The notes beneath the pieces were generated by a model. The model ran no database searches, was not told the origin of the DNA, and saw only the letters and a program-made list of their open reading frames with translations. Made by a program: the position numbers and the translations under genes. From Owenia fusiformis (taxonomy: Eukaryota; Annelida; Polychaeta; Sabellida; Oweniidae), in the NCBI GenBank assembly GCA_903813345.2, contig CAIIXF020000005.1, forward strand, positions 23,377,375 to 23,441,374: a DNA stretch of 64,000 bases, written 5' to 3'. Numbering within the stretch: the stretch's first letter is position 1; every line of letters begins with the position of its first letter. Shown one piece after another: positions 3,990 to 49,200 of this stretch.

Positions 3990-4620
3990 TTTACCGTTTT
4001 TGAGATAATTGATGTCAAAAAACGGTAATAATTGGTCATTTTTCAACTTGCTTCAAATTGACCAATTATTTTTTAAACATGATCTACAAGTTCTCTTCTT
4101 ACTTTTGACCTTTGACCTTTAGTTGACCTTCAGTGACCTTCGAAAGGTCAAAAAAGTTGATATTTTAATTTTAAATTGATTTTCAGGATTCAAGGTTCTG
4201 GTATATTTTATCACAAAAGACCTACTGAGGTATAAAAAAGTAAAATTTGCAAGGTCAAAGGTCAAGGTCATCAAACTAAATCACAAACTGTGTTTTCTAA
4301 GTTTCTCAGAATTGATGACTACAAATCAATATATTTTCATGAAAGTCAGGATATATATTCCTCTATAGGTTCTACACATATTAACAATTGACTATTTATT
4401 AAAATTGTGTACCAGTTTTGAGATATTAGAACTCAAAAACTGAAAAAAGGCCAAATTTCGAAACTTTTCAAGACTAAATTTCAACTTGCTTCAAATTGAC
4501 CAATTTCTTTTTAAAACATCATTTACAAGTTCCCTGGAGTTCATATATGCCTTTGTTTTTGAGAATTGACCTTTGGCTGACCTAAAAAAGGTAAAAAGCC
4601 TACGGGGTCTCCGTAAGATT
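3990..4620. repeat. Diverged relative of the ATCGCACTTTGAA family units, with clustered TGACCT half-sites
   Basis: Shares 'acttgcttcaaattgaccaa', 'ctacaagttct', 'gaccttcagtgaccttcgaa' and 'cctactgaggt' with the units at 15441-16872 and 35037-37044. It includes TGACCTTTGACCTTT near 4115 and AAGGTCAAAGGTCAAGGTCA near 4249. Confidence 0.6.
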
Positions 4621-5696
4621 GCTTGCAATCTTTGACATCAAGTTATAATCAAATTGTAAAGAAAAAACACTGGATCCCACATCAAAGAATGATTTGTTCA
4701 TTATGAATTGTAACTTAATGACATTTTGCGATTGCTTTTCCTAATTCATTCCAAAAGACAACCTGCGCACATTTTGTCGTGTTGCTCCAATGTTCTGTAA
4801 TAAAGCAATACCTTAATCATTAAGCTAGATCTGTTTAATGTTTAAAATAAAATGTTTAATATAATATTTTTTTGCCTATGCCTGGTGCACTCTTAGATGT
4901 TTTCCTTTTCTTGCTGTATTCTGTAACCAGTTTTGATATTTTCTTGCTGGCATTAATGGGTTACATATTGCTTTGGAGGGGTGAGACTTTATTTTATGGT
5001 CAAATAGCTCCTGTAAGTTTGCACAGTAAAACATATTTCTGTCAGATTAGATAACATGCTAGATACTTAACTTATTTTCAATAGATGCTGCATTGATTTC
5101 ATCTATTTTGATTCATAAAATAATTGTGTATGGGAAATGCTTAACAGTTTGTTATTCACCATGGCCTTCAAAGTCTGTACCTTTTTAATGGATGATGGTA
5201 TTTATGGCTTCATCATTCTCAAATTTCAGTAACAGAATCTACTAGTTGGTAAAACGCTCATTAAGATACAATTAATCTTTTTGAAACAATTGGAAAGCTA
5301 ATACAAATATGAGGAGTTAAACATTGTAGGCTTTGTATAATGTTCCTCATTTGTATTATTGCCTACTTGCTTTTACTTTCTTTACTAACCTGTAATGCTG
5401 TTGTTTTGCAGAAAGTTTTGTTTTTAGCTCACATGGGACAAACGAGCTACGCTAAAGAAGAGATTTTCAAAATGGCTGCTAAATATCAAAATGGTGGCCA
5501 TTTATCGTAAAAAACACAATCTTTGATAGCTCAAATACCAGTGAACAGATTTGGTTCAAATTTTATAGGCTGATGCCTAGAGACACATCTGTTTGACAAA
5601 GAATTTTCAAGATGGAGGATGAATTTTAAAGTTGCCGCCATTTTCGTAAAACGTGTAATTTTTGATAACTCAAATAGCAGTGAACAGATTTGGTTC

Positions 5697-6337
5697 AAAG
5701 GATAGGTATCGATATGGTGAACTGAATTCAACAATGTTTTTCTCTTAAACCAATATATTGAAAACATTCTGTAAAAAAACATGGTCCTTTATGTTATGTT
5801 GACTGATTGGCAACAATTTAATGCAAAAATTATTTCTATATATTCTATATAACAGTTTTTGTTAACATTTTTTGTTTTTTAGTTCAATTGTTTTTTGTTC
5901 CTTTCTACCAATTCTTGAGAATGAAATAAAATGTCTTTCCGAACCTTGTTGGAACAAAATAGCATATACAACATTTTCTTAGACCTCTCAATATTACAGT
6001 TATACAAAGGAAATTTTGGTTGATTTTACAAAATGTATGCAAAAACTTTCCAAACTTTCCTCATTGTGTTTATGTCTTTTTGTTCCAATGAGGTTCGGAT
6101 AGATGTTTCATTTCATTCCGAACATATATTACCAAGAACAAAAGAAGTGTCTGATGTGTTTTCTAAATCAATAGAGAGAAAAGGATAAATACACTGATGT
6201 ATATGTTTCAAATTATAATGTTACCATCCAAAAGATGACCATTAAATTGACGAGGTGTAAAATTTTCAGAATGTTTTGATGACTGGTTTAAGAGAAGCGC
6301 GTGTTCAAAAAGTTCACCATATCGATACCACTCCTTT
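5697..6337. mobile_element. MITE with AAAGGATAGGTATCGATATGG-type ends (copy 1)
   Basis: The left end aaaggataggtatcgatatg is mirrored by ccatatcgataccactcctt at the right. It is inserted into the 'gatttggttcaaa' dispersed repeat, whose sequence resumes on the far side. Inverted relative of 41426-41904. No coding region. Confidence 0.75.
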
Positions 6338-6604
6338 TAGATGCTAATCGACTCCTGGTTCAAAACCTGGCCTTTTTTCAAAATGGTCGCCATTTTTCTC
6401 TAGCAAAATTCACTTTTGGCCCATTTCCTTGCTTTACAAATAATTTCAAGTGTCCTGCATTGTAAAAAACCATGTCATTGTAAAGAGTAGTTCTATGAAA
6501 TAATTTTGCTTCAAAAAATCGGCAAAAACTATATCCATTTTAGCCATCATTCACTTTTGAGCAACACCATGTGAGCCCAGTACCCACAGTACTATTTATT
6601 TCAG

Positions 6605-6809
6605 CCTGCACCTGCTTACATGGAGTGTGCTCTAATGGGCCTAAGGGGGATGGGCTGTGCAAGCCTAATAGCTGTAAGAATGGGTATAGTGGCTTGAATT
6701 GTGACCTCCAGTTGACACTATGTGAAGATGGGACCCGAGCAAAGTTGCATTGTCATGTGAATGCAGAGTGTATTGTAAATTTTAAGAATGAATCACTCAT
6801 AGATACTAG
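6605..6809 (+). CDS. Exon 1 in window: EGF-like modules
   Basis: Acceptor tttatttcag at 6595-6604 and donor gtaagt at 6810. The exon enters with the last two bases of a codon and leaves with AG, so the Arg codon is completed by exon 2. It encodes [11 protein letters not shown], then a NGYSGLNC ending typical of EGF modules, then the first half of a second module ([14 protein letters not shown]). The 3' 70 bp and the donor are tandemly copied downstream. This entry phase means at least one coding exon lies further upstream. Confidence 0.9.
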
Positions 6810-9800
6810 GTAAGTATTGCTTCTTTAGTATTAATGTCATTGCAAAGTTGCATTGTCATGTGAATGCAGAGTGTATTGTAAATTTTAAGAATGAATCACT
6901 CATAGATACTAGGTAAGTATTGCTTCCTCAGTATTAATGTCTTTGCAAAGTTGCATTGCCATGTGAATGCAGAGTGTATTGTAAATTTTAAGAATGAATC
7001 ACTCATAGATACTAGGTAAGTATTGCTTCTTTAGTATTAATGTCATTGCAAAGTTGCATTGTCATGTGAATGCAGAGTGTATTGTAAATTTTAAGAATGA
7101 ATCACTCATAGATACTAGGTAAGTATTGCTTCCTCAGTATTAATGTCATTGCAAAGTTGCATTATCATGTGAATGCAGAGTGTATTGTAAGTTTCAAGAA
7201 TGAATCACTCATAGATACTAGGTAAGTATTGCTTACTCAGTATCAATGTCATTGCAAAGTTGGATTGTCATGTGAATGCAGAGTGTATTGTAAATTTCAA
7301 GAATGAATCACTCATTGATATTAGGTAAGTATTGCTTCCTCAGTATTAATGTCTTTGCAAAGTTGCATTGCCATGTGAATGCAGAGTGTATTGTAAATTT
7401 CAAGAATGAATCACTCATAGATACTAGTTAAGTATTGCTTCCTCAGTATTAATGTCATTGCAAAGTTGCATTGCCATGTGAATGCAGAGTGTATTGTAAA
7501 TTTCAAGAATGAATCACTCATAGATACTAGGTATGTATTGCTGCCACAGTATTATTGTATGTGTATATGAATATGTTGGTACTATTTAGAGATTATCCTA
7601 TTTGAGGTTCAGGATATGGGGTTATCCCAAGGCCAATATAATATATCTGCCCGAGGGCCATTGGTCCTGAAGAAAGATGTATTTTATTGGCAAAGGGATA
7701 ATTAAATAAATTGGATAAACCCCATATCCAAAACCTCTCAGTACATAACCCTTATATATCCAGATAGAGATTATAGGAATATCCTATATCCTATAATATC
7801 CTAAAATATCAATTATATCCAATCATGGATATAAATATCTTCACTCATTCGCTGCGCTCACTCGTAAAGATATCAATATCCACTCATGGATATAAATGAT
7901 ATTTTTCAAAACCATAGGATTGTCCGTTTATCCCATGGGAAATCTTAAAAAAAAAAGATTTCGAAAAACATTTTTGAAAAAAAAATTGAAGGAAAATTTT
8001 TTTGAAAATTTTATGATTTTAAGGAAAAAGTCTAAAAAATTTTTTTAAGAAAATCTTGAAAAAAAAATTATTGAAAAAATCGAAACTTCGAATATCACTT
8101 TTGAAACCATCGAATATCACTTTTTGAGAAGTGATATTCGATGGTTTGAGAAGTGATATTAGATGGTTTGGGGATTTTTTGCTAAAATATGATATCTTGA
8201 TCCACATATCAAATATATCTTCACCTGATATTCAATATATATCCTTGTAACCATTGGATAAATGCATTAATCCTACACTTAGTGTACTAAATGTATAATA
8301 ACATCAAAAAACAAATTTGATATTTATTGCCAAAATAAATAACCGGAGGATATCGCGGTGATATACTCCGGGCCCGGAAAACCCAATATGCGGAGGATAT
8401 TGTGACGATATACTCCGCTTGTTGATTTCCTGCCAAATTGACTCTTTTGCAATGATATTATACATTTAGTACACTCCTTGTAAGTGTAGGATAATAAGAA
8501 CATCCTATGATTTTTTTCAGAATATCATTTCAATCTACTCGGTGATATTGTTATATGCACTCGTTCACTTTGCTCTCTCGTGCAGATATCAATATCACCT
8601 CGTAGATAAAAATGATATTCCTCAAAATCATAGGATATCCTATAAATATCTTCCGAGGGATAAACCCATGGCATGGTACAGAGGTAATGGATACAGCTGT
8701 GTAGCTATCAACCCCTGTATTGAAATATAATATGATATATTTGAACTTCAGGTGTCAGTGTATGGCGGGGTACAGAGGTAATGGTTACAGCTGTGTAGCT
8801 ATCAACCCCTGTATTGAAATATAATATGCTATATTTGAACTTCAGGTGTCAGTGTATGGCAGGGTACAGAGGTAATGGATACAGCTGTGTAGCTATCAAC
8901 CCCTGTATTGAAATATAATATGCTATATTTGAACTTCAGGTGTCAGTGTATGGCAGGGTACAGAGGTAATGGTTACAGCTGTGTAGCTATCAACCCCTGT
9001 ATTGAAATATAATATGCTATATTTGAACTTCAGGTGTCAGTGTATGGCAGGGTACAGAGGTAATGGATACAGCTGTGTAGCTATCAACCCCTGTATTGAA
9101 ATATGATATACTATATTTGAACTTCAGGTGTCAGTGTATGGCGGGGTACAGAGGTAATGGATACAGCTGTGTAGCTATCAACCCCTGTATTGAAATATAA
9201 TATGCTATATTTGAACTTCAGGTGTCAGTGTATGGCAGGGTACAGAGGTAATGGATACAGCTGTGTAGCTATCAACCCCTGTATTGAAATATGATGTGCT
9301 ATATTTGAACTTCAGGTGTCAGTGTATGGCAGGGTACAGAGGTAATGAATACAGCTGTGTAGCTATCAACCCCTGTATTGAAATATAATATGCTATATTT
9401 GAACTTCAGGTGTCAGTGTATGGCAGGGTACAGAGGTAATGAATACAGCTGTGTAGCTATCAACCCCTGTTTTGAAATATGATGTGCTATATTTGAACTT
9501 CAGGTGTCAGTGTATGGCGGGGTACAGAGGTAATGGATACAGCTGTGTAGCTATCAACCCCTGTATTGAAATATAATATGATATATTTGAACTTCAGGTG
9601 TCAGTGTATGGCGGGGTACAGAGGTAATGGATACAGCTGTGTAGCTATCAACCCATGCTTAGATATATCATATGGGGGCTGCCATAAACAGGTAATTGAT
9701 TATCCCACCGAACGAAGTTTGAGGGAGATATAGTAAAGTCATCCGTCTGTTTGTCTGGGCCATAACTCAAATACCAGTCGACAGATTTGATTCAAATTGT

Positions 9801-12800
9801 ATGGGGGTATGGCTTATGGGGGTAGAACCTCTGCTCGAGAAGGAATTTTCGATATGGCCGCTTAATTCAAAATGTTGCCATAAAAAATCTAATCTTTGAT
9901 AACTCAAATAGCACTAGTGGATTTATTTTTCAAATTTGCTACATGTTCTATGCTGATGCCAAGGGACACAGTAGCTCTGTTCAATAAAGATTTCCAAAAT
10001 AGCAGCTGAATTTCAAAATTGCTGCCATTTTTCGTAAAAAGGAATGTAATATTTGATAACTCACATGCTAATTGACGGATATGGTTTACATTTTCTATGT
10101 TGATGCCTAGGGACAAACAAGCTCTGCTCAAGAAGGAATTTTCAAGATGGCCACTAATAATCAAAATATGTTTTGATCGGTGTGATTTGCTACTCCGTGG
10201 AATTGCTGTTTTTCTAGGTGATTTTATTTATGCTCAATCTTATGTACCCACATACCTTATATAACACGTACCTTTATCACGTTGAATCCAAATTAATTAA
10301 TTTTTTCAGGTATAACAAATAATCAAATGATGTGCAAGACATTAGTATGCAGTAAATCCAGAGGAGTTTTATGAAAAAAATGAGTTGAAATGTATGAGTG
10401 AAAATGTACAATGTATGTGGCATACCATAGCTGCGCCAGGAAATTCACTTCCATTAGTATACACATAAATATGTCCTTGCTCAGTTTGAGAACCTGTGAT
10501 AACCTGTGACATGCTAACATATTAACTGCAATTTTTGTTTTAATGTTAAGAACAAAATTAACGTTTTTAAAATGAAGCTTTTACATTCCATCACATGTTA
10601 TTTACTAGGGACCATTAATTGGATCTTGAGGGGAGCTCACATTTTTCCAAAATTCGGTACTGTACCTGTAGTTCTTCTATAGATAAAATCCTAATGGTCC
10701 AACTTTTAGCAGAAGTTGTAGACTAGTCCAGAGAATTGGCACAGTGTTTATCAACAAGTCAGTAGCTCTAATAATTACTTGCCATATTGTGTCGCTCATT
10801 AATAACTAATTAGCGCATCAGCCGATATGTTATCTAATCAATGTGCAGGATATGATCAAGAACAATCACAAGCACATGTTGGCTTAAAGTTGAGCGTGTG
10901 TAAAGCAAAATTTGAAATCATGGAAATGGCAGTTCTTAGTTAAACATCGTCAGTTCAAAACTAGGCCATCCAAACTTAACGATAATATTCAGAAACCAAC
11001 AGTGAACATTTTGAGATCAATTTTAATGGCAAATGATTTCAGTTGGTCATCGAATATGACAGTGGCATCTCTCCTCCTCTGGTGATCTTATGACTCAATG
11101 TTTCATCCGAACATGATAGTAAATTATTATTACAAAATTGTAAGTTCATCTCCTTAATAATAGTATGTTTACCTTTGGTAGTATTGTCCTAGTAATTGTA
11201 ACAATGAACTGCATAATGAACCAAACCAGAAATTGATTGAGCTTACACACCCAAATAAAAAGTAGACTCTTCTAATCCACCAGTGGAAATTCGGTGTTAT
11301 CCATCACCAGAATTTTCGGACACTTGAAGCTAATTATAAAGTTATGTAAATGTTGGAATGTGGATGATTAAGCTATAGCCAAGATTAAAGGTATCAATTT
11401 ATCTCCCTCTTGAAGGAGGTTGTACCTTAAAGACTTCCCTTTAATTTAATTTTCTTTTCAGGCAAAATGTTTGTACACATCACCTGGGCAGAATAAGTGT
11501 ACCTGTAGGAAAGGTTGGGTGGGAGATGGCACTGCTTGCTTCCGTGCGAGGAAGTGCTTCAACTCTAAGATTCACTGCCATAAGAATGCAACATGTAAAG
11601 GCAGAATCAAATCCATAGTTGTAAGTGCTAAAGTTAGGTCTTATTGCATCATCCTTAATCAAATGCTGTTCTGTTTAACTATATTTGGAACTTTGAGATT
11701 ACTTGGGAATGTTGAGGAATTGTCTGTGTATGGTTGAAATTCCCAATTTTTTTCTCATGTAACTAATTTCTTGATGCACATTCTGTTAATGCTGAGAATT
11801 TAACCTCTTGACTACCTGGAGTGACGAGATTTCTTGTCACCTCAGAAATGACCTTGAAACCCAGAGTGACGAGAAAATCTGTCACCAAGTTTTTCACTAA
11901 AATTGTGTTTGAACAATTTTCATCCAATTTACACAAGAATTGTTTTAAAACGTGTAGAAATGATCTCGTCTAATTTTTACTAAGTTGAGCATCTAAAGTT
12001 GTATAGGTATGTAGTTAAATGTCAAAAGGGGGCAAAAATGAAAAATTCTCTGGTTTCACCCGATTTTAGAGCCTGGGATTCAAGCAGACAAAAAACAAGT
12101 GCATTTAATCACTTAATCGAGTCCTATGCTATTCTTTTCCCAAAGGGCTATGCATTTTAAACCAAACTAAATCATAAATCAACCAGAAGTCTTTTTCAAG
12201 GGGAGTATTCAGGCATGAAACTTTTAATCATAATTACACCTAACCATGCATACCTAATCATCATCTACTCATTTCATCATCATTGATGATATTAATACTG
12301 ATTCGAGTCCAAAATGTGTCCGGTTTTAGAGAAGTTAAGAAAGTGACGGTAAATCAAGTAAGAATAATCATGGTTCACCTACTTGGGTGTGTTTTGGGAT
12401 CATACTGCCATGTTCCTGTTAGAGATCATTCAATCATGCCCTTCATCTTACTTTTACTATTTTGCGCAATTACTATACTATTTTTCCTTTTTTAATTCCC
12501 CCCAATGATTCCGAAAGATCATGAAATATCAATGTTTTATTTTTCATAGTGCTTGATGATCACATTTTCTCTGTAGCTATTTCTCTCTATCAATGAATTA
12601 AGAGACATATAACAACTTCTTAGTACTCCGTTAATAAGCTATAAACCATAAGTTTTTTTCATTGAGAATATTAGCTCATTTCTAGTTATTTTTTGATGTG
12701 TGCTTCTGATTTTTTCTCTCATAGAAAAATAGACTTTATGATCATTTACATTTATATTAGTAAAATGGTTGAATCCATTGTAGTGTGGTTCAAATATGTG

Positions 12801-15800
12801 TTTCATACACTGTAGGTTTGATAGATTAACATGGGTATGTGATATTTTTCAGATGTTGCCCTTCTTGCTTTGATTATACATGAATATAACACAAGACATA
12901 TTAAATGCATGTATTTCAAATATATTTGAATTCATTATTTGAAGCATAGGACTTGTTGTTTATTTTACAGGGACGGTGTGTATGTAATGATGGTTACCAT
13001 GGGAATGGTGTTTGGTGTGTACCTACAAACACTTGTGCAATAAATAATGGAAATTGTCATAAAAAGGTAATAAAAATTTATTATGTTTTGTTGTTTGTTA
13101 TCCTGATGGTATAATAATATTGAGGAAATGCATTGGAGCTGCAAGTAATTTAATAATCAGACTTTTATGGCTTTAAGGTGTTTCTCATTTGTTAGCTAGT
13201 ATGTTTTATGGAGAAAAAGGTGTTCATAAAACAGAGTTGTTCATGTTCAAAGTGTTCTTTTGATTTGAAATCCTTTCCTGTAAGTATGCTAATGAATTGG
13301 GGTATTTATTCATTGGCTTTTAACAAAAATGCACAGTGGCATTTTATGCCAAATATACAAGTATTACTTCAATGAAAATGACACAACAGCCATTTGCCTG
13401 CCATATTGAAATAACAGTACATGTATCAACCAATTTAGAAATAGAAAACAAAAGGGTTTGGATCGTTTTTTTTTAAATTTTTTTCTAGACGAAAGTGGAA
13501 CACAGGCATTATTTCTCAGTCAGGACTCATATGGGCGCTAAGAAGGACAACTTTTCGAACTGTTTTGAATTACCTTGAGCGCCTGGGCACCAATCACGGC
13601 TAATACAGTATATATACCAAATATATGGTATTATTGTTTGATGTCAGTATACAGGATGGGCCAAAAATGTCAATATTTTTATGTCACCACCAAAAAGGGG
13701 TGACATATTGTTACAGAGACATTGTGTCCATTTTTTTTGACAGCGGTTGGTGATTGGTGGATGGCGGTTGGCTATCAGCAATCAGTGTGTGGTGGTTGGT
13801 GTCTGTAACAAATTCTTAAATCTTCCAATAACTCTGTAACTTAACAGATACTGTTTAGACTGACTTCAGTTTTTTTGTTTTTTTCAAAATCATCTAAAGG
13901 TTATCAGAAGTTCAAATCTGGCTAAGATTTGAGATTTTACCTTCATTATCCCATCGAACGAAGTTCGGAGGGATATAGGGAACGCCTCCGTCCGTCCATC
14001 TGTCCGTCCGGGCAATAACTCAAATACCGTTGGCCCGATTTTGTTCATATTTTGTACACATATACCCTATGGGGGTAGAAGTTCTGCTCAAAATCCAATT
14101 TTCAAAATGGCCACTCATTTAGAAATGGCGGCCATTTTAGTGCCGATTTTACAGTAATTTAGGTGCAATATGTAAAACAGTAATAGCAATATGTTTTAAA
14201 TGTAAAAAAATTATATAGGACATTAATAAAGCTAGAAATGTAGATATTAAAGAAGCACATGGCAGCCATCTTGATAAATGGGGGCCTTTACTCATTATTT
14301 TATGATTTTTGCTGTAACTCGAAAAGTAGTGGAGCGATTTTGTTCATATTTGGTATGTGAATACAATAAGCATGGCACACCGTCTATTAATGACACTTCT
14401 GGTAGAAGGTTGCCATTTGGAAAAATGGCTGCCATTTTTGCTATATACTTTGTAAAAATGCCAGCCATGGCTGTTCGATGGGATTTGCTACGCTTTGGCG
14501 TTGTTGTTGTCTAGTTATTGCAATTGAAGTGTTTTTTGTTAGATCCTGAAGTTTCAGCATCATAGGTTAATGTAAAGTCTTAAAATGGTTGCTAAAGCAA
14601 CCCGGGGGTAGGGATAGGCGGGGCAGGTACCAATATTTCTAATCATGAAGAGCTCTAAAGTGTTTTTCTATTTATATTTCTTTTAAATGATCAAAATGTT
14701 TGGGAAGTTGTTCCCTTTATTCAGCACGATGTTCACCAAACACAAATAATGACATTTAGCATTGTGATGTCATCATGCCACAGTTCAATTAATCACAAAT
14801 TTAAATTCAGTCACAGTCTAGAAATTGCAAAAATGCCTGCAATTCTCAAACCTGATAAGAAGGCCTTGTTCACGGTGGCCCAATTTTATAATTCATTTGG
14901 ACTCACAGTCACACAAACTCATGCTACCATGAAGAAAGTTAAAAGGAATATACACCAGATAGAGCTATAATTATGAGGTGGCAGAAGAGATTTCAAAATG
15001 ATGACTCGACCCTGGATGAACTCCAAACCAAAACCTCTTTAAATTTCATGAAAAAGATTTCAATGCTATATACACTGTAGCAGTCTCTATTGCAAAAGAA
15101 ACTATCTGAGGTGATGATATGTGCACATTCACTTATTTTATTACACTAATAGCTTTTAGAGCAATTTGTTAAGGAGTAAAAATGGATTATGACGAGTATG
15201 AATCACTTCTTGATGGGCCTGAGCCTATAAAACTAGACACCATACAGGATTGATAGCCCATGCTGATGTTAGTTTTGTTGACCATGCTTATAACATTAAC
15301 TGCCTTTCTCTATGATCTAGGCCATACCACACATTTCTCTCTAAGATTGAATGAACTTTCTGATTTTGCATTGCTATACATGTTTATTGCTTTAATGCTA
15401 GCTAATTCCACTCATTTTCTATCAATTTTGCATTTTTATTATCGCACTTTGAAAAAGTGCTATATTGCCGTCGTCTTGTGCTGTTGGGCGGGCGGGCGGG
15501 CGGGCGGGACATAAACCAAATCAATTGTCATCAAATTTCCAGGATAACTGCTTACCTGTTCAACTTGAAATTTTTACAGATGCAAGAGCAGACTAGTACC
15601 AAGATCTGATTAGGTTAAGGGCATGCTGGGTAAACTACGTGGTGGCCATTTTGAATTTTTCAACAAATCTTGTCATCAAAATTCTAGGAAAACCACTTAT
15701 CCGTTCAACTTGAAATGTTTACAGATGCAAGAGCAGACTATTGCCAAGATCTGATTAGGTTTTGGGTATGCTGGCTGAATAACATGGTGGCCATTTTGAA

Positions 15801-28200: not shown

Positions 28201-31200
28201 TCCATAGAATTTGGAGTATCAACTACAGCATGTTGTTATTTTATTTCTTATAAATTCCACTCATTCCCCATTTTAATTTACATTTTAAAGCATGGCTATT
28301 GTAGTTTAAGTTGGTCCATCCCTTGTAGCTTTGGACTTTTGGACCCATAACTTAGGAATTATTGTTTTGATTTGCATTAAAATCTTCTATGTTCTTTTAT
28401 ATAGCACCAAAGAAAAGTCTTTGACACAACTTTTTGGAAAAATTCAAAATGCCTGCCATTTTTATTATTGTAGAAAATTCACTTTTTGAGCTATAACTCT
28501 ACTTGCATTAAATTGTACAGGTATCTAATTCTAATCTAAAAATGCGGTTTTAAAGTGTTGACATAAATTCTTGCAAAAATTCAAAATGGCCAGCACTTTT
28601 ATCGGAGAAAAGTCACATTTAGAGAGAGAGCTTTGAAGTCAATATGGCTATCAAATTGACAGTAACTAAGATCACAACACTTTGTGAGCTCAGTACCCAT
28701 GGTACTATTTATCTAGTTTCTAATGTTGGCTTTCTTGATTTAGATAATGCAGAGATAATTGGCATATTGCCATATATATATCATTATACTAAATTGGATT
28801 TTAACCCTAGAAGTCCTAACGTAAAAAGAAGTCACACGAATACCTTAGGGGGCTCAAAAGGGCACCCCCCCTTGTAAAATTTGTATAAGTAGAGCTAGGA
28901 TGTTCAAACTTTCCCCAAATACTTCATTCAATTATCTACAACTTGGTGTAATAACTTTAACAACTATGATGATGTAAGACTGGGTAATTTTATTCTAAAG
29001 ACAACAAGTATGGTAGAATTAGTGCTAGCCTTTTCCCCGATTTTGTCTATTGGAGCTGATGATTACATCATAATAGATTAATAACAAAACAGTAAAGCTA
29101 GGATGTTCAAACTTCCCCAAAGTATACTTCATTCAATCATTTCCAACTTGGTGTAATAACTTTAACAACTATGATGATGTAAGACTGGGTAATTTTATTC
29201 TAAAGACAACAAGTATGGTAGAATTAGTGCTAGCCTTTTTCCCGATTTTGTCTATTGGAGCTGATGATTACATCATAATAGATTAATAACAAAACAGTAA
29301 AGCTAGGATGTTCAAACTTTCCCAAAGTATACTTCATTCAATCATTTCCAACTTGGTGTAATAACTTTAACAACTATGATGATGTAAGACTGGGTAATTT
29401 TATTCTAAAGACAACAAGTATGGTAGAATTAGTGCTAGCCTTTTTCCCGATTTTGTCTATTGGAGCTGATGATTACATCATAATAGATTAATAACAAAAC
29501 AGTAAAGCTAGGATGTTCAAACTTTCCCAAAGTATACTTCATTCAATCATTTCCAACTTGGTGTAATAATTTTAACAACTATGATGATGTAAGACTGGGT
29601 AATTTTATTCTAAAGACAACAAGTATGGTAGAATTAGTGCTAGCCTTTTTCCCGATTTTGTCTATTGGAGCTGATGATTACATCATAATAGATTAATAAC
29701 AAAACAGTAAAGCTAGGATGTTCAAACTTTCCCAAAGTATACTTCATTCAATCATTTCCAACTTGGTGTAATAACTTTAACAACTATGATGATGTAAGAC
29801 TGGGTAATTTTATTCTAAAGACAACAAGTATGGTAGAATTAGTGCTAGCCTTTTTCCCGATTTTGTCTATTGGAGCTGATGATTACATCATAATAGATTA
29901 ATAACAAAACAGTAAAGCTAGGATGTTCAAACTTTCCCAAAGTATACTTCATTCAATCATTTCCAACTTGGTGTAATAATTTTAACAACTATGATGATGT
30001 AAGACTGCGAAATTTTATTCTAAAGATAACACATATGGCAGAAATAGTGCTAGCTTTTTCCGATTTTGTCTATTGGAGCTGTTGATTACATCATAATTAA
30101 TCAATTACCCTTTGTACGATTTTGCTGATTTTTTTTTGACGATCCTAACAGATGTCAATAAAAAGTTAAGGGGAAAAAACTTAACAGAAAAAAACTTTGA
30201 CCCCCCCCTAGGGCATCTAGGGTTAAGGAAATGCACTTTTTAAAGCACATTGAAATTTATTAGAAACAATGCACATTGGTTAATATAACTTGTGTTGTTT
30301 CCTGATCCCAACCTGACACTGGACGCTACGGGCCACATAAGAGCACATTATTCCTAATTTTTTCAATGATAGTTCCCAACTATTTATGTTATTTTTTTTT
30401 ATTTTAGTTTGTGCGTGTAAACGATGCGGTTATTCTACATGGTGACATTCATGGTCTTAATGGAATTATACACATCATTGACAAGGTAAGACTTTACAAA
30501 TGTATATCCTTTTTAGTGAGATGTGTCACAAGAAACAAACGTGCACACTACATTACAGATGAATATGCTAACCATAACATTTGGGAGTACACCCCTCAGA
30601 TATATTTCTTGAATGGATACATTTTTAGAAACACCTCTCATCTTATGACGTATGAAATATTCTAAAATTAACACTTTCAATGAGAGCACCTCAAAGTGTG
30701 TTAATGAAAAAACTAATTACTTTTTTGACATGCAATTTATTTTAAGGCCATTTCTGTTTTTTTACAAATCAGTAATCTATGTCAAATACTGTATAAGTGG
30801 TAATTTTGCCTAATCATTTAATTTGCCTTTTTCCTAATTTTTGCCAAGTTCGGAAAATTAAATGTCGGAAATATTGTTTTTATAATGTTATCCAATGGGA
30901 GGTTTATTGTCATTAGGAAAATTAAAATTAGGAAAATGATGAAATTTGACCATTCGGAAAATTAACCACTCGGATTAAATACCACTTATACAGTATTGAG
31001 CTCAACTCAGGTAGGATGGTATACATATCTATATTTTTCTCAAGTGTGCAATATTATTTTTCATGTGTCTTGCTTTTCCATTTACTGTAGTGAAATTAAA
31101 GGAAACATTGACGACTTTGATGAACTTAAATGATCATGCTATTCCCAAGTTAATTAACAAAAGGGAAAGGGTGGGTTACAAATAATGAAGTACTGTTTTC

Positions 31201-34200
31201 TGACCAATCATTTATCTATGAACTGCCACAATTACCAGCTTGTCATCTATCTTTCGTTTGTCAAAACTAGAGCCCCAAGACCTTTTCTGAAAGAGGTAAA
31301 ATTCGTCCAATATCCAATATCTGTTAGGCTACAGAAGATTGTGGATAAAGTGACATGGAATTAGAATAAATATAGCAATATAGTTAAACATTTAAGTTGT
31401 GTGAAGTGACCCTGGTAGTGATCTCAAAATATGGTAAATATAGCTGATAACCTTGAAATAAGTCACTGATAAATGACATACAGCTTAATAAAATGTCAAG
31501 GAGAAACTCCATAATAATGAAAGTGAATCTTTCTTTGCATATCAGATGATCCATGGATTAACCAGATGATGCCAGGATCAAGTGGGATCAAGAAAACTGA
31601 TGAATATATGTCTTCATTTTGGAATCTTTACTGAAGCATGCCCATCACATAGTAAATATGAAATATTTGTTAGATCAAATAAGCCTTTCTGATTACTTGA
31701 CATGGAAATTGAAATTGAAATTTTTCTTGAATGATTGAGATGGAATGAAATAATTTTCTGGAATGATTGATATGGGCAAATTGACAAAAACTGGAATGAT
31801 TGACATTGAACATCTGGAATAATACTTTAGCACCTCTCAATCCAAAACTTGTTTGATATTTCTTGGATTCTTAGACTGATTCTTAGCCTGGGTATAAAAC
31901 AAATTGTAGTACCTCAAATGATTTACAGAATTTTGAAGTGATCCAGTCCTTCCAATTGATTCAAAATCTTTTGGAATGTTCAAAGTCTTTTTGAATGATT
32001 GTCAACTAAAGTTGATCATTCAATATATTTCATTTTTGAGGTCACCTTTTTTATATGGGTTGTGCCACCGACACAATGGCATTACCATTGCAGACCATCT
32101 CAAGCTAGTGGCCTGAGCTCAGGGGCCTGCCCCACTCCAGAGAAAATGTGAAAGTTAGACCCTCTATGGTGCATCTGAGAGCCATATTTGCATCATTAAA
32201 TACAAATCTCTAAAATAATGTTTTTTCTGTATAAAGGGCTTGTGAGCATATCTCTAATTTGAACACTTCAGTTGTTCCCTAATGTCAACACATTTTTCAT
32301 ATTTCAGGTTTTAGAGCCATATCCCATTGCAAATGGAGAAGCACCAAGCTTAGTTGAACTATTACAGAATAACCAACATTACACAATATTTCTGGGGTAT
32401 CTCAGTCGCAAGGGGCTAATAGACAAACTTGCTAATCTAACCACACAATACACTTTATTTGCACCTGTTAATTCTGCCTTTAATCAATGGAATGAGACAG
32501 ATTCACTTTTGGAGGTAAGTGACCCTTTCCATTTGATATTATCTTCTTGCTTAGAGCTTATTTCTTACAGCTTCCCAATAAAACTAATACAAAGTAGAGT
32601 TTACATATATTTTTTCACAGTTCAGAGTGTTAATATCATACACATTTAAGTACATTCAGGGGCGTAGCCAGCTTTCAGTCAGGGGAGTTTGATCACCAAA
32701 AAAATTGGTTTTCAGTCAGATTGTGACATAAACAAGCCAAAAGTTTATTTTGAATTTTACAAAAATTGACAGATTTGGTTAACAGATTTGGTTAATATGC
32801 TGATAGGGACATAGAACTCTGCTCAAGAAGATTATAGGTCCTCAAATTAATTCTTTAAAAAACTCTCATTGAAATCACATAAAGTTGTCATTTATGATCA
32901 ACATTTTGCAGTTGGTGTAATGTAAGCATTCAGTATGTGTGACAAGTGTTACACTTTTGTAATTTTGTTTATATTTTATCAGGCTAATTCATGCTGTTTT
33001 GTCAGTAGAAATTAAAATAATCAAAATCTGTGTGTGGCTGTTTCTGAAACTGCCTCTCATGAATTTTAAAATTGGCAAGAATCAGAATACATAAAAAATA
33101 AACTTTATTTTGCCTTGCTTAATAAAGGCAAAATCTTTGTCATGTGTATAATCAGGATCAGCATAACCGTATGAGACTGATGATTATTAAACTTTCCAAC
33201 TGATTGGATTTCCACCTTTGAATGATTTATTACTGAAATAATTATCTTCATTTATTTTGTAACTCAACCTAGCTGTTAGCACATGGCAAATAATTCAATA
33301 AATGAGGAATAGAAACATTCATTTTAATTCCTCATTTATTCATTACAGTTTGATAAAACAAAAAGGAGCTTTTGGGAGATGACACCCTCTCAAAGAGACA
33401 ATTTTTTAAAGGTCTCTTAATTTCTTTATTAATCAAGTACATTATTGTATTTCCATTTGGATTAATGCTTAAACCATAAGAAACTATATGATTTTGTTGA
33501 CATGTATGTGAATTGTGATGTAACATTAAAATCAGGATCCTTGAAAGAGTAAATATGAATGTTATTTAGAAACTTACACACAGAATTCAACTATGCCATG
33601 AAAATGGAAGAAATTGTCAAAAATTCAGATCTGCTAAAATCTCAAAAAGGAGACTTCAACAAGATTTCAAAGCTATTTAGCGAGCTCTCTATAGATGAAC
33701 TTTTGAAAGTTGCCATTTCCATGTTATCCAATGTGTAATGGTATGCTTGCTGAAATGTTATAGCTTTCAAAAAATATTTCTATGTAGCAAACTGACTTTA
33801 ACTATCTTAATTTGAAAGAAGTTCATTCATTTTATCAAGGGAAAGAGGTCCTCAAAATCAAATTTATTCTTAAAAAACTCTCATTGAAATCACATGGGAG
33901 GCAAAAAAAACGATTTTCAAAATTGACTTTGATACCCGTGAATTGTTATTTCATGGAGTATACTAAAAGGAACATGACTCCTGTAGGTAGGCAATTCAAT
34001 TTCCTTCATTAGTTCCATAAACAGATACCATATAATTATATTTGTAGCAAACTCACCGCCTGCATTGGAATAACATGTAGATGGTGACTTTCAAAAGTTA
34101 ATCAAATACACGGTGTAATGCATCAAAGTACGACATTTTGTAAGTGAGGGCCAAATTCAGGAAAATTCTGGGGAACTAGAAATGAAGTCAATTCATATGA

Positions 34201-37200
34201 TCATTAATACAATAAGGCAAATTTTACTGCTTTTTTAATAATAGAAATTGAAACATGGGCACCATTCAACTGAGAAAAGAAGGTTTCTAAACTTTTGGAT
34301 GGGAGTGTATGTTGACCTTGTATATTACTGAAGGTTAAATATTGTTCTGTTTTATAGCACCTGGACATGTTATATTACATTGTCCCAGAGGTTCTTTATA
34401 CACGCAACTTGATTAACCTCACAACTATGGAATTAGATAGCCTTAACACAGATGGTGATTCATTGGAACTAGCTGCAGAGAATAATAAGGTAGGTATTTT
34501 TGATTAAGGCCTGGATTGTTTAATTGTCTGTTAAGTGGAACTGTTTCCCCTATCAAATGAATTGTGCCTCTTTGTCTCACATAGGTGAGCTATTGAAATC
34601 ACCCACTTTTCTGTCTCTTTCTCTGTCCATCAAATCATATGTCCATCCCTCCATCCATCCATCCACCAATCCTTCCCTCCATCCATCCATCCATCCCTCC
34701 ATCCATCCATCCATCCATCCATCTATCCATCCATCCTTCCCTCCATCCATCCATCCATCCACCAATCCTTCCCTCCATCCACCCATCCTTCCCTCCATCC
34801 ATCCCTTCCTCCTTCCATCCATCCCTCCATCCATCCATTCCATCCATCCCTCCATCCATCCATCCATCCATCCATCCATCCATCCATCCATCCCTCCATC
34901 CATCCATCCATTCCATCCATCCCTCTCCACCATCCATCCATCCATCACATATTTTGTAATCCTCAATGACAGTTAAAATTATTTCCCTTTTAAAATGTAT
35001 CTGAATGACTATGTATAGAAACTGTGTGTTTTTATTATCGCACTTTGAAAAAGTGCTATATTGTCGTCGTCTTGTGCTGTTGGGCGGGCGTACGGGCGTG
35101 CGGGCGGGCGGGACATAAACCAAATCTTGTCATCAAATTTCCAGGATAACTGCTTACCTGTTCAACTTGAAATTTTTACAGATGCAAGAGCAGACTAGTA
35201 CCAAGATCTGATTAGGTTTTGGGTATGCTGGCTGAATTACATGGTGGCCATTTTGAATTTTTCAATTTGGCGGCCATTTTGAATTTTTCAACTTGCTCCA
35301 AATTGACCAATTTCTTTTTTTAAAAACATCTACAAGTTCTCAGAAGTTCAAATCTGACCTTAGATTTCAGATTTGACCTTTAATTCACCTTCAGTGACCT
35401 TGAAAAGGTAAAAAAAATTGATTTTCTAAATTGATATTTTGGATTTAAATTTAGGTCAGCTTAATTACAAAACACCTACTGAGGTCTGAAAAAGTGAAAT
35501 TTTCAAGGTCGAAGGTCAATGTCATTAAACTAGGTCACAAATGATGTTATCAAAGTTTCTCAAAGTTTGAGACTACAAATCAATTCTTGTCATCAAAGTT
35601 CCAAGAAACCTACTGAGGTCTGAAAAAGTGAAATTTTCAAGGTCGAAGGTCAATGTCATTAAACTAGGTCACAAATGATGTTATCAAAGTTTCTCAAAGT
35701 TTGAGACTACAAATCAATTCTTGTCACCAAAATTCCAAGAAAACCGCTAACCTGTTCAACTTGAAATTTTTACACATGCAATAGCAGACTAGTGCCAAGA
35801 TCTGATTAGGTTTAGGGCATGCTGGGTAAATTACGTGGCGGCCATCTTGAATTTTTCAACAAATCTTGTCATCAAAATTCCAGGAAAACCACTTATCTGT
35901 TCAACTTGAAATTTTTACAGATGCAAGAGCAGACTATTGCCAAGATCTGATTAGGTTTTGGGTATGCTGGCTGAATTACATGGTGGCCATTTTGAATTTT
36001 TCAATTTGGCGGCCATTTTGAATTTTTCAACTTGCTCCAAATTGACCAACTTTTTTTTTAAAAAACATCTACAAGTTCTCAAAAGATTTGACCTTTCGTT
36101 CACCTTCAGTGACCTTGAAAAGGTCAAAAAAGTTGATTTTCTAAATAGATATTTTGGATTTAAATTTAGGTCAGCTTAATTACAAAACACCTACTGAGGT
36201 CTAAAAAAGTGAAATTTTCAAGGTCGAAGGTCAAGGTCATTAAACTAGGTCACAAATGATGTTATCCAAGTTTCTCAAAGTTTGAGACTACAAATCAATT
36301 CTTGTCATCAAAGTTCCAAGAAAACCGCTAACCTGTTCAACTTGAAATTTTTACACATGCAATAGCAGACTAGTACCAAGATCTGATTAGGTTTAGGGCA
36401 TGCTGGGTAAACTATGTGGTGGCCATCTTGAATTTTTCAACAAATCTTGTCATCAAAATTCCAGGAAAACCACTTATCCGTTCAACTTGAAATTTTTACA
36501 GATGCAAGAGCAGACTATTGCCAAGATCTGATTAGGTTTTGGGTATGCTGGCTGAATTACATGGTGGCCATTTTGAATTTTTCAATTTGGCGGCCATTTT
36601 GAATTTTTCAACTTGCTCCAAATTGACCAATTTTTTTTTTAAAAACATCTACAAGTTCTCAGAAGTTCAAATCTGACCTTAGATTTCAGATTTGACCTTT
36701 CGTTGACCTTCAGTGGCCTTGAAAAGGTCAAAAAGTTGATTTTCTAAATTGATATTTTGGATTTAAATTTAGGTCAGCTTAATTACAAAACACCTACTGA
36801 GGTCTGAAAAAGTAACATTTTCAAGGTCGAAGGTCATCAAATTAGGTCACAAACAATGTTATCTAAATTTTCCCAAAGTTCAAGACTACAAATAAATTCT
36901 TGTCATCAAAATTGCAGGAAAACCGCTAACCTTGTCAACTTGAAATGTTTACAGATGCAAGAGCAGACTAGTGCCAAGGTCTGATTAGGTTTTGGCCATG
37001 CTGGGTGAATTGCATGGTGGCCAGTTTGCTCTTCAAAGTGCGATATTTATCACTGTGTGTCTTGTTTATTTTACCTTAAGGGTACATGCACAATATTTTG
37101 TTATCTACTTGTTACTTGGATGGGCAGGCTGGACAGTAGGCAGGGGTGTCTCTTTTATCCCATCTGAACATTTTATATAAGCCCTGCTATTGATGAAATA

Positions 37201-43200: not shown

Positions 43201-46200
43201 GAAGATAAGAAAGGAATAATGGGAATATTAAATCTTCTGTGCACCTCATTGATTTCCAAATTGACTTTATAATGTACAGTTATTTTGTTTATTACTCATT
43301 TATCTTCATTAAAGGCCAGGAGAACCTTCTATATTATAAAGGAACAGTTGACATGTTAGGAGGAGTAAACCTTAATCTACAGGTCTATTTTGAAGAAAAA
43401 ACTTAATCTACCAGCCACAGGTTTTTTGGGTGTAACCTACAATCTCAAAACATTTCACTCAAACATACAGATATACAGACCCTAGGTCTTAGAACTTAAG
43501 AGAAATAAACTTCAAAACAATTTAGAGTAAATCATCATCACATAATTTGATATAGTTCGGATTCAATTTGAATTTCAGTCATCTTGTGGCCCAACTGTAG
43601 CACCATGCCCAGAAGGCTATTTTCCAATGGCAACAGCCATGTGCAATATGACAAGTCCCCAGGGTGTGACCACCATGTCCCTGAATGAAGTGACCAGTTC
43701 CCAAAGCATAATGACAAGTCCCAAAAGTAAAATGGCTAGTCTCCAAAGTGAATCGACAAGTTCCCAGCTGATGGGTATGATGAGCATCTGTGTAAAAACC
43801 ATTGAAACAAGAAAATGTTGCCATGGATTTAGTGGTGAAAACTGTACAGGTATGTCTTCTTTGTTTTCCTCATATAATGTGTAATGTTAATCATCTTAAA
43901 TGATAATACATATAGTGGCACATTTAGTTTCCCCTCAAGCCAAGAGTGGCATCAAATGGAATCTGATAGAGCCCATTGTTTGTAAAGGGACTTTCTATGT
44001 TACCCTTTGGTGGAAAAACTGGAATTTGCTATTTTTGAACTGTTCCATCATCAAATTAATAAAATTCTCTTCAAGCTATATGTCAGATTATCAAGGGAAA
44101 ATATTTTTTTAAATGTCTTAAATGGCAGAATAGTTGTATAGTATAGAATGTAAATATTGTAGATTTTTTGTTTTCTCTTTGTTATGTATTTGCATATTTA
44201 TCCAACCAGCAATTTGGTAGAAAGATAACATATTTACAATTATACAAAATTTATCAATTCATATTTATCTCTGTCACTGCATTCCCTCCCGAAATATTGA
44301 TATCTTCCTTGTAATATTCCCCACATCAAATCCCTCCTGGTGAATAACTACATGTAGTCATTTTTCCCAAAGGGGGTTCACTTTATAAAAATATATGTTC
44401 AAATTGAAATTGTTCAAAATTTGTTACGGGTCTGGATAAACTGCATGTATGAAGCAAGTAGAGGATTAACAAACTACGAGTATAAGATTATGTTTCAATA
44501 TGAAAATTCTATCAACAAGCTCACTGAGATAATAAAAATTGAAAAGTTAACTTGTACTTAGTTTGACAGAGAGTAACCACATATTTGAATTGGCTTGAAA
44601 CCTATAATCACATATTATCTCCCCATGAAGAAAGCAAATTGTAGTATATTAGGTTCCCCTGTTGATATTTACAACACTGTGTGTGTATTAGTTTCAATCA
44701 AACTCTAGCGTTTCCTGTGTATGGGTGTGAACACCTCTGATTTGAACATCTCTCTACTGAAGCACCTTTTTAAAGGTTATAGTCCCTGATCTGGACCCTC
44801 TGAAAAAAAGTTTTGTTGTCCGGTACTTTCCCACATAAAATGATTGTACCGTTTGAAAGAACAGACTTCCCTCTTAAATAAAACACCTTTTCTATTGATG
44901 TAAACAGGGGCAAAAGGCACCAAAACGGGGTTAGACAAGGTGGCATTCTGAAGTCTCACTTTCTTGTCATCACGATTCCAGGTAAACCATCAGACGGATT
45001 TACTTCAAGTTTTCACACATGTTACATGGTAAGAAGTTCTAGAGCTGATTAACTTCGCGGCGGCCATCTTGCATTCTGGCGGCCATCTTGGAATTTTTTT
45101 CAGATAAATATTGTCATCGCGATTCCACAAAAACCACACAACAGATGTACTTCAAATGTTCACACATGTTACATGGTAAAAAGTCCTAGACCTCATTATT
45201 TTTTCGGTGGCCATCTTGCATTCTGGCAGCCATCTTGGAAGTTTCAAGATAAATCTTGTCATCACGATTTCAGGAAATCCAAACGGATTTACTTCAAATT
45301 TCCACACATGTTACATGGTAAGAAAATATAGAGGTGAATAACTTTTCGGCAGCCATCTTGCATTCTGGCGGCCATCTTGGAAATTTTGGGATAAATCTTG
45401 TCATCGTGATTCCAGGAAAACAACCTAACAGATTAACTTCAAATTTTCACACATGTTACATGGTATGAAGTTCTAGAGCTGATTAACTTTTCAGTGGCCA
45501 TCTTGCATTCTGGCGGCCATTTTGGAAGGTTTATAGATAAATCTTGTAATCACGATTCCAGAAAAACCACTTCACAGTTTTACTTCGAATTTTCACACAT
45601 GTTACATGGTATGAAGTTCTAGAGCTGACTAACTTTTCGGTGGCCATGTTGCATTCCGTCGGCCATCTTGGAAGTTTTTAGATAAATCTTGTCATCACGA
45701 CTCCATGAAAACCACGTAACAGTTTTACTTCAAATTTTCACACATGTTACATGGTAAGAAGTTATAGAGCTGATTAACTTTCCAATAGCCATCTTGCATT
45801 CTGACGGCCATCTTGGAAGTTTGTAGATAAATATAAAATACAGTCAAAGCACTTACCACCAACAAAGGATGCTCTCATTCTCCATATAAATAGAGCCAAC
45901 TATCAGGCCTATATTTGGCGAAACGCAGGCAAATCAATGATTGATTATCAATCCCCCACATTACATGGTTGGACATTCAAAGGGAGTAAACTACAAATTA
46001 AGTGGATGGAAAACGGTCCTGCCCCACAAGAAATAATGGAGCTTGTTGCTTGCAGTTGTAAAGGAGCGTGTGACTCAATGAGATGTAGTTTTAAGAAACA
46101 GGATCTCATTTGTGGAAGTTCATGTAAGTGCCGCAAAGGTGTGTGTGAGAACTGTCCAACCCATCAGCACGATGATGTTGATGAGAGCGACAATGAATTT

Positions 46201-49200
46201 GAACCAGTTGATGACACCATTACACCAAACGTTGAAGATCAGGAAGAAAATGAATTACCTGAAAATCTCTTACCTGACAACTGGATGAACCAACTTGTCA
46301 AAGTTGATGCCATAATATGAATTATATCACCCTGTATATACACTGGTGATCCGCTCGATTACAGGTACGATTTGTCCTTATTCCTTATTTCATGCGGTGT
46401 AGGCAGAATCCTCTCGACGTTTTTTGTCACAAACGTGAATCAGTATCATATGTCTTAGAAAATGTACATGTTTGCGAAAAATAGCTCAGAAAATCGTCGA
46501 TTTAATTCCTAACTTAAGTTACATAAAGGTTTGGGTTAAAAGTGCAGATCTGTACCGTTTTTTCGAAATACCATTTATGTAACTTAAGTGAGGAATTAAA
46601 TGTACGATTATGTTGTCTTCTGAACTATTTGTTTGCAAATATGCACATATGATACTGATACACGTTTGTGAGAAAAAATGTCGTGGGAATTCTGCCTACA
46701 AAGTGTGAAAGGAAAAAGGAAAAATCATACCTTCGATGTTCCCACATTTTGTTACCGAAACAAACCGTTTAGGTAACCAGCATAATCGAGTGGATCACTA
46801 TAATATACTTTAGTAGTCTTTAATAATGTTAGGGAGGATGAGTTGTAAGGCATACTATGTCATGTTAGATCATGATCTATACTATTTTTTATTACAATTT
46901 ACCAGTTACACTTTCTCCATGCTATGTTCTATTATAACTTTTGTTCCGTTTCCTATGGCATCCGTGCTTTATACATTTACATTCACAATGGTCCCTTCCT
47001 GGTATATTTTTTTAGGTTTTATGACTGTTAAATTCTATAGTCTTGTTAAGACCACTTTATAAACAGGTTTATTATTACTTTTATGACTGTTAAATTATAT
47101 AGTCTTGTTAACACCACTTTATAAACAGGTTTATTATTACTGGTGTAACTAACACAGCGAAAAAAAATATAATTAATTTATTTGATTTTCGATTAGAAAT
47201 ATATTTAGTTGAAAACTTAGAGTAAACAATCACAAAGTTTATTTTGGTTCAGTAGATTTTTCTATACATTATTTTGATGTCACCACCACTAGTGATTGGG
47301 TGACATATTTTAATAGCTTCGAACGTTTATCTTGACACTGTTCAGTAGTTAATGTGTACTGTATACTTAACAAGGTGTGGTGACATTTTGCATGTTTCTG
47401 CATCGTCCCTACTATTGAAAGCTTATGTTGATATTGTAGCAGTGTTTTTTAAGTTCTTTTTGTTGGTACAATTAATTTCCAAACCCTATACTTATATCGA
47501 TCTGACACACAGTTTTAGTGCAGGTTTAAGTGATTTTTGTTGATTATTAAACGCAAAGAGCACATGTGTCTCGAACTCACAACATTGTGGATACAGAGCC
47601 CATTCACATAGTTTGACATGCTGGTGCTCTGAACCAGCTCGTTAGTTAATATCTGACTAAGAGACAGCTTGCTTTCCCGATGAAGAAACGTTATCTGCAG
47701 CTTTTATGAGTACTATAGTATCTACAACTAGTTTTGATCTTATGAGTATTGGATATCATTATTTTCAATTTTTCTTCAACATGTATTTTAATGACTTCAG
47801 TATGAATGGAATGTCCCTCGGAGTTGTTGTCGTTGATGAGGAATTGGTCATCGAACGGTGTTGATGCTGTTTATTCCCATATTAGATTATTGTCTTGGGA
47901 TATTCAGGTTTGATTTTTGTTTGCCAGTTTTACACTTTACAGTTTGCTTTTCCCACTAGGTTGCTTTACACTTTTTTCCTTTCTCATTTGTCATTTTTGT
48001 TTATATTTAGTAAGGATATGATACGCAGGTCTCTCCTTCTGTATGATCACCTGTCCAGAAAATAATTCAACTGCATGAAGAACATTTCGTTGACATGATG
48101 CACAGTGAAAGGTTTTCCACACATTTACATTTCGTTTAAAAGAGCTTTAATTCCGTTATATACTCAGATCAAGGCCAATTTAGCATACATTTCGCTCTCA
48201 AAAATCACTGTGCAATAATGCATGGATTTCAAAGAAATGTTTGACATTTTCAATAATCTTTTTTCTTTTTGATGAAATGTAGTTATTTATTCTAAAAATC
48301 AATCGATGTCATACACAAAATGCATTTAAATGGTATAAAGTACAGAAGCAGAGTAAAAATATGTATTTTAGAATATTACCATGTGTTACCCCATTGTAGC
48401 GCCTCTTGCCCATGTTTCTATCAATATAAAACATGATATCATACACCAAATATGCATCTATGTCAAATTATGTGGTTTAAAATACAGAAAAATAGATAAC
48501 ATTCTCCTTAGAATACCACCTTGTGTAACCCCACTTTACTGCCTTTTGCCCCTGTTTATATCAATATAAAAGGTAGCACGTAACCTTCCTTGTAACATGT
48601 GTAAAAGTTTCAAGAAAATCAGTAAAGTGGTTTTCCTGGAATCACAATGACAAGATTTATTCAAAAAACTTCCAAGATGGCCGCCAGAAAGCAAGATGGC
48701 CACCGAAAGATTAATTAGCTCTAGAACTTCTTACCATGTAATATGTGTGAAAATTTGAAGTAAATCCGTTTGGTTTTCCTGAAATCGTGATGACAAGATT
48801 TATCTTTAAACTTCCAAGATGGCTGCCAGAATGCAAGATGGCCACCGAAAAAATAATGAGGTCTAGGACTTTTTACCTTGTTACATGTGTGAACATTTGA
48901 AGTACATCTGTTATGTGGTTTTTGTGGAATCGCGATGACAATATTTATCGGAAAAAAATTCCAAGATGGCTGCCAGAATGCAAGATGGCCGTCGCAAAGT
49001 TAATCAGCTCTAGAACTTCTTACCATGTAACATGTGTGAAAATTTGAAGTAAATCAGTCTAATGGTTTACCTGGAATCGTGATGACAAGAAAGTGAGACT
49101 TCAGAATGCCACCTTGTCTAACCCCGTTTTGGTGCCTTTTGCCCCTGTTTACATTAATAGAAGAGGTGTTTTCTTAAAGAGGGAAGTCTGTTCTTTCAAA

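Follow-up and report, generated by a model that had tools for sequence, protein, structure and literature searches.

A stabilin-like gene of Owenia fusiformis with tandem arrays of predicted splice sites at both ends of one intron

How is an intron spliced when its first donor is followed by a series of near identical donors, and its last acceptor is preceded by a series of near identical acceptors? This question is raised by a locus of Owenia fusiformis, which was examined within a window of 64 kb (the whole stretch of DNA that was analysed; contig CAIIXF020000005.1, 23,377,375-23,441,374, of an assembly of 498 Mb in 525 contigs). Exon and intron boundaries were assigned from the reading frame and the splice consensus, and all exons discussed here are predicted ones. 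The features, in window coordinates, are as follows.

6605-6809, + strand: exon 1 (205 nt), stabilin-type EGF with a Pfam EGF_STAB1-2 match (E 6.7e-12), placed by its junction and frame
6739-7558, + strand: array 1, 8 x 103 bp, from Tandem Repeats Finder (TRF) and the unit layout
6829-7530, + strand: latent 84-nt in-frame cassettes, from a scan of acceptors, donors and frame
7583-8655, no strand: repeated DNA in the middle of the intron, MITE-like and partly fold-back, from sequence matches elsewhere in the genome
8668-9654, + strand: array 2, period 94, 10.5 copies, 96% matches, 0 indels (TRF)
8668-8751, + strand: copy 0 of array 2, partial, beginning mid-exon beside the repeated DNA, without an acceptor
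8752-9597, + strand: nine intronic units of array 2, 94 bp each
9598-9691, + strand: exon 2 (94 nt), the tenth acceptor copy, with a cEGF match just above the cut-off
11462-11620, + strand: exon 3 (159 nt), EGF_3 match just above the cut-off, boundaries by eye
12971-13066, + strand: exon 4 (96 nt), EGF-type, EGF_3 at 24.4 bits against a cut-off of 28.5, boundaries by eye

Judged by its domains, the gene on the + strand is a putative stabilin-like, receptor-like gene. The EGF_STAB1-2 match of exon 1 covers 6604-6711, and a Fasciclin match above the cut-off is located on the same strand at 32377-32505, in frame 32263-32646. We infer that both exons are parts of one gene. A hydrophobic stretch near 63 kb, late in the gene, resembles a transmembrane helix by eye, and EGF-type exons with a likely signal peptide were recognised, also by eye, upstream of the window. 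The EGF_STAB1-2, EGF_3 and Fasciclin exons and the late putative transmembrane helix are shared with the scavenger receptors stabilin-1/2. Unlike those, the Owenia gene bears the arrays, and the likeness concerns single exon domains. The stabilin-type EGF and Fasciclin domains, together with the putative transmembrane stretch, uphold the receptor-like nature assigned to the gene in the original prediction.

The Pfam scan covered ten frames picked by eye. Upstream, an EGF_STAB1-2 match (25 bits) falls below the cut-off, and a Fasciclin match lies above it but crosses one TAG. For the frame 61586-62083, a search of solved structures gave one weak relative, NELL1. As controls, 14 genomes were scanned with the two families: EGF_STAB1-2 matched in one of them, below the cut-off, and Fasciclin above the cut-off in four. 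Exon 4 looks equivalent to exon 2, and the intron preceding it is without an array (TRF, window). In the long region upstream of exon 1, about 45 copies of a 50-bp tandem unit were observed (positions 4624-6877 of one stretch).

Array 1 is built by 8.0 copies with a period of 103, 95% matches and no indels. In each unit, 71 nt of exon end are followed by 32 nt of intron start, including the donor. Copy 1 is formed by the last 71 nt of exon 1 itself, followed by the predicted productive donor GT at 6810. An eightfold repetition of the donor end at 103 bp had been predicted; the copy number and the exact period stand, but the donor GT is intact in seven of the eight copies only, copy 7 reading AGTTAAGT. 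The donor of copy 8 is GTATGT. In simple counts against a consensus motif, which were used for all splice consensus and pyrimidine scores given here, six of the seven donors reach 8/9, so that the first donor is not marked by anything in the donor itself. Pairwise identity between the copies ranges from 88 to 99%. The variants form a mosaic, with T and C alternating at unit positions 86 and 88 across copies 1-4, and in copy 5 a tyrosine replaces an EGF-type cysteine.

Array 2 provides ten acceptors, with exon starts from 8752 to 9598, the tenth being that of the coding exon 2. The prediction that exon 2 and its acceptor occur ten times at 94 bp is correct for the acceptors, but only the first 57 nt of the exon are repeated. 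This 57-nt exon head, with 37 nt that carry the acceptor at their end, makes up each intronic unit. None of the nine units holds a complete exon, and an in-frame TAA or TGA is present in every one. They are 94-99% identical to each other and also contain a mosaic variant: copies 1 and 3 share a T at unit position 34.

A trace of how array 2 started may survive in the 37-nt tail of the unit. Over this tail, the nine intronic copies have a consensus that agrees with the coding exon at 19 of 37 positions (shuffle P 0.001; 50 of the 62,920 37-mers of the window match equally well), and its translation, NPCIEI*Y, resembles the NPCLDISY of exon 2. The length of exon 2, 94 nt, equals the array period, and CAG|GT is found at either of its ends; a duplication between two CAG|GT motifs would give such an equality of exon length and period. 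An older whole-exon duplication might thus have set the 94-bp register, with the intron tail and exon head expanding later, an account that we hold as a tentative one and find somewhat harder to accept than to doubt. The breakpoint of the tail match was chosen after seeing the data, and the older whole-exon duplication is a lead only.

Between the two arrays, nearly all of the sequence from about 7583 to 8655 occurs elsewhere in the genome (rough first-look candidate counts of 4625, 2439 and 1077, with 40 scored each time). The right end of this repeated DNA lies near 8650-8656, with one match reaching 8663. Between the arrays, the sequence that does not belong to this DNA is limited to some 24 nt on the left (7559-7582) and some 12 nt on the right (8656-8667). 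Copy 0 begins mid-exon, which suggests that array 2 once extended further left and lost this end where the repeated DNA now stops; array 2 therefore probably predates its junction with the repeated DNA. An acceptor-like stretch at 7598-7612 was considered as the left remnant of copy 0 and rejected, as it lies within a repeated element that occurs at no fewer than 39 other places.

The original prediction also held that two independent expansions had taken place at the same intron and that the locus could be a slippage hotspot. The first point is supported, and the second as far as growth by slippage or exchange is concerned. A comparison of one unit of each array showed no similarity, with P 0.24 and 0.94 for the two strands, by which a common origin of the units was rejected. 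Variants shared in a mosaic are as expected from repeated exchange, and they support growth by slippage or exchange. Hairpin-driven slippage was rejected, the folding of one unit per array being ordinary on each strand (z -0.7 to -1.2).

Tandem arrays are prone to mis-assembly, by which the copy number could have been inflated, and a single copy of the locus was seen. A search of the 498-Mb genome with one array-1 unit gave 8 matches and a search with the last two array-2 units gave 10, all of them at this locus, although such searches can miss copies; no second haplotype was seen in the assembly with units of either array. However, the copies differ from each other (identities of 88-99% for array 1 and of 94-99% for the nine intronic units of array 2), contain no indels and share variants in a mosaic, which makes an artefact highly improbable. 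No paralogue with an unduplicated intron was found at the level of domain matches: a search gave at least 163 EGF-type matches, and in the EGF_STAB1-2 scan a site on contig C7 reaches the cut-off only together with its neighbours, the upstream match on C5 staying below it.

The consequences for translation were determined for all 70 single-junction pairs (seven donors by ten acceptors). One pair is open, 6809 to 9598, which is the outermost; 66 pairs end at TAA and three at TGA. The presence of many competing splice sites around one intron, as originally proposed, is confirmed by these seven donors and ten acceptors, which are near identical locally. The further proposal that translation stays open only between the first donor and the last acceptor holds for single junctions, where 69 of 70 pairs meet a stop, but not for paths through the array-1 cassettes described below, which avoid the stop.

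In our view, the arrangement is probably the product of two junction-crossing tandem duplications that have grown into the intron, tolerated since exon definition favours the outermost sites. One tandem duplication would have spanned the end of exon 1 with its donor, another, independently, the start of exon 2 with its acceptor, and both would have expanded by slippage or unequal exchange. Exon definition is expected because the introns beside the two exons are long: 2788 nt for the array intron (6810-9597), 1770 nt for the downstream one (9692-11461) and about 34 kb for the one upstream of exon 1, where exons were recognised by eye and small ones were possibly missed. The spliceosome would then recognise each of the two short exons across its own length and favour the outermost sites, and the remaining copies would stay as inert intron. 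Leaky use of the inner sites would give stop-containing transcripts destined for degradation; where many exons follow downstream, as in this gene, an early stop would more likely lead to nonsense-mediated decay than to the truncated soluble receptors of the original prediction. These soluble forms, like the tuning of splicing efficiency proposed with them, are hypothetical. That the extra copies lie towards the intron would follow from the need for a simple open message, which is kept only by joining the outermost donor and acceptor. If only outer-pair splicing gives a working protein, further copies could persist on that side alone, and the mirror layout would arise by itself. The most likely outcome is splicing that is for the most part correct, with a degree of unproductive leakage. 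The splice choice, the decay and the neutrality of the copies are all points that we infer from the sequence.

A transcriptome-wide study of splice-site choice (PMC9225289) bears on this explanation in both directions. According to its available sections, the upstream 5' site is preferred among near-equal sites in long introns (>250 nt), while the upstream bias at 3' sites shrinks in long introns and smaller exons are preferred; a reversal of the 3' bias in long introns is not claimed in these sections. Carried over by analogy to Owenia, with its nearly equal donors, this would mean that the outermost donor is favoured and that the pull to the inner acceptors is reduced rather than surely gone. 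In the same sections, however, most events in all four intron classes prefer the downstream 5' site before the equal-strength filter, and classical tests are cited in which the sites nearest across the intron win. Both observations speak against the exon-definition reading, as they would favour the inner, wrong sites here.

If the inner sites competed with the productive pair, the arrays could act as a splicing brake, in which nonsense-mediated decay would follow and the copy number would set the receptor dose. The seven donors and ten acceptors with near identical local sequence would suit such a brake, as would the stops in 69 of 70 pairs and the in-frame TAA or TGA in all nine intronic units of array 2. 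We regard it as unlikely, since no sign of selection keeping the inner sites was found, one of the eight donors being lost, and since exon definition would lead to use of the outer pair (PMC9225289). Somewhat more doubtful still is a titration of splice sites, in which copy-variable arrays would compete with the productive pair, the repeated DNA, which holds the inner sites more than 1 kb apart, would keep exon definition, and the amount of receptor would be set by array length and insertion state. If that were true, loss of the repeated DNA would switch splicing to the unproductive inner pair.

Selection on the copies was assessed by counting variable columns. In copies 1-7 of array 1 (copy 8 was excluded as the array edge), 7 of 71 exon columns and 6 of 32 intron columns are variable (P 0.22); in the nine intronic copies of array 2, the counts are 3 of 57 and 5 of 37 (P 0.26). 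Pooling gives 10 of 128 for the exon against 11 of 69 for the intron, a non-significant trend (Fisher P 0.09), and purifying selection on the exon part did not reach significance. There is no significant coding constraint in these small numbers, with a trend to a less variable exon part that might point to constraint or else to an exchange with the coding copies. With one donor out of eight lost, the cysteine lost in copy 5 and a non-significant constraint, the array copies look neutral.

Array 1 holds a further potential. A pyrimidine-rich acceptor is located 19 nt past each array-1 donor position, and the next donor follows 84 nt further. Six of the resulting cassettes end in an intact donor, and all six are in frame and stop-free. 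The acceptors of array 1 have 9 pyrimidines out of 12 in six of the eight copies and 8 and 7 in the other two, compared with 7 out of 12 in all ten acceptors of array 2. The units could therefore be spliced internally as nested mini-introns, so that some copies would enter the message in frame; an intron gain in a potato RdRp gene is a precedent (PMC4974935, available sections). With the array-1 acceptors, 16 splice paths are open (canonical one included), whether the minimum intron is set at 40, 60 or 80 nt, and adding the weak GTAATG donors of array 2 raises this to 2720 at 40 and 60 nt and to 336 at 80 nt. These counts drew on chosen site classes and leave out further consensus-like sites, such as a 7/9 donor, CATGTGAAT, in each array-1 unit. 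The open routes are possibilities on paper. Neighbouring cassettes are separated by 19 nt, which is too short for splicing, although alternate ones (122 nt) could be spliced. Five variable positions of the cassettes are non-synonymous and four synonymous (hand count), so that constraint is not apparent, and an open frame with a length divisible by three is not rare by chance. The divergence under coding constraint of exclusive or cassette exons is not seen, the copies being near identical and the cysteine of copy 5 lost. Inclusion of such cassettes is thus very unlikely, and the growth of two junction-crossing duplications into the intron is preferred.

De Grassi and Ciccarelli (2009, PMC2812944) described tandem repeats across exon-intron boundaries in duplicated genes of humans, and the head-to-tail units of Owenia likewise span predicted exon and intron. 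As far as the available text of that study goes, variable internal tandem repeats can alter splicing and intron formation, and the human units average 30 bp in 4 copies, whereas those of Owenia measure 103 and 94 bp, in 8 and 10 copies, and carry splice sites at both ends of one intron. In the potato RdRp gene (PMC4974935), a junction-crossing duplication copied an acceptor with its surroundings, as in array 2, and the Owenia duplications also span a splice or AGGT motif. The potato case is a single duplication with a new intron proven by RNA; that of Owenia has many copies and is read from the genome sequence. The CAG|GT-bounded exon 2, with its length equal to the period, also resembles the Rogers model (as presented in the accessible part of PMC4974935) and the exon duplications at AG/GY proto-splice sites in Drosophila (PMC2891723). 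In the available portion of the latter, duplications are inferred without surviving similarity, whereas the Owenia copies survive, their whole-exon origin being only suggested. Arrays on both sides of an intron, with nearly every unit carrying a splice site, were found nowhere in the literature searched, which is not proof of their absence in print. This suggests that, boundary tandem repeats being already known, the two-sided form with splice sites is apparently new.

Seven near identical donors and ten acceptors are present in cis, and only the outermost pair gives a simple open message. The locus offers a natural test of whether cells choose the splice site that is nearer across the exon or the one that is nearer across the intron. 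Junction-crossing tandem duplications are a proposed source of new introns, and the arrays show one stage to which they can proceed. Should the arrays be inert, they would still illustrate clearly how splicing can hide the growth of repeats.

The arrays as such are beyond doubt, with 8 and 10 copies at 95-96%. Their pairing had been called unlikely by chance, which is overstated. Arrays with a period of at least 40 and at least 2.9 copies were counted in 16 samples of 10 kb at fixed rather than random positions (at 5 and 15 Mb of contigs C1-C4 and C6-C9), in 40 kb upstream and in the window, where 7, 1 and 5 were found, respectively. Omitting array 1, array 2 and one ankyrin-like 99-bp array, the background is 10 arrays per 264 kb, or about one per 26 kb in the stretches examined, and closeness alone therefore says little. 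With an even spread, roughly 9% of arrays would have a second one within about 1.2 kb to their left or right. Arrays seem to be clustered: two samples hold two arrays each, the pair abutting and looking alike in one of them, and the sample with the ankyrin-like array also holds two if that array is counted. What remains unusual is that both arrays straddle splice junctions of one intron.

The omitted 99-bp array has about 32 copies (positions 4014-7205 of one sample), has one open reverse frame and, judged by eye, resembles ankyrin coding repeats. Elsewhere in the window, a 205-bp tandem array of 5.9 copies with 97% matches is found at 28888-30097, and a long TCCA microsatellite of about 76 copies with 83% matches at 34642-34946. 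An open frame of 171 codons with a cysteine-rich end, at 45805-46317, is possibly part of a mobile element, as judged by eye.
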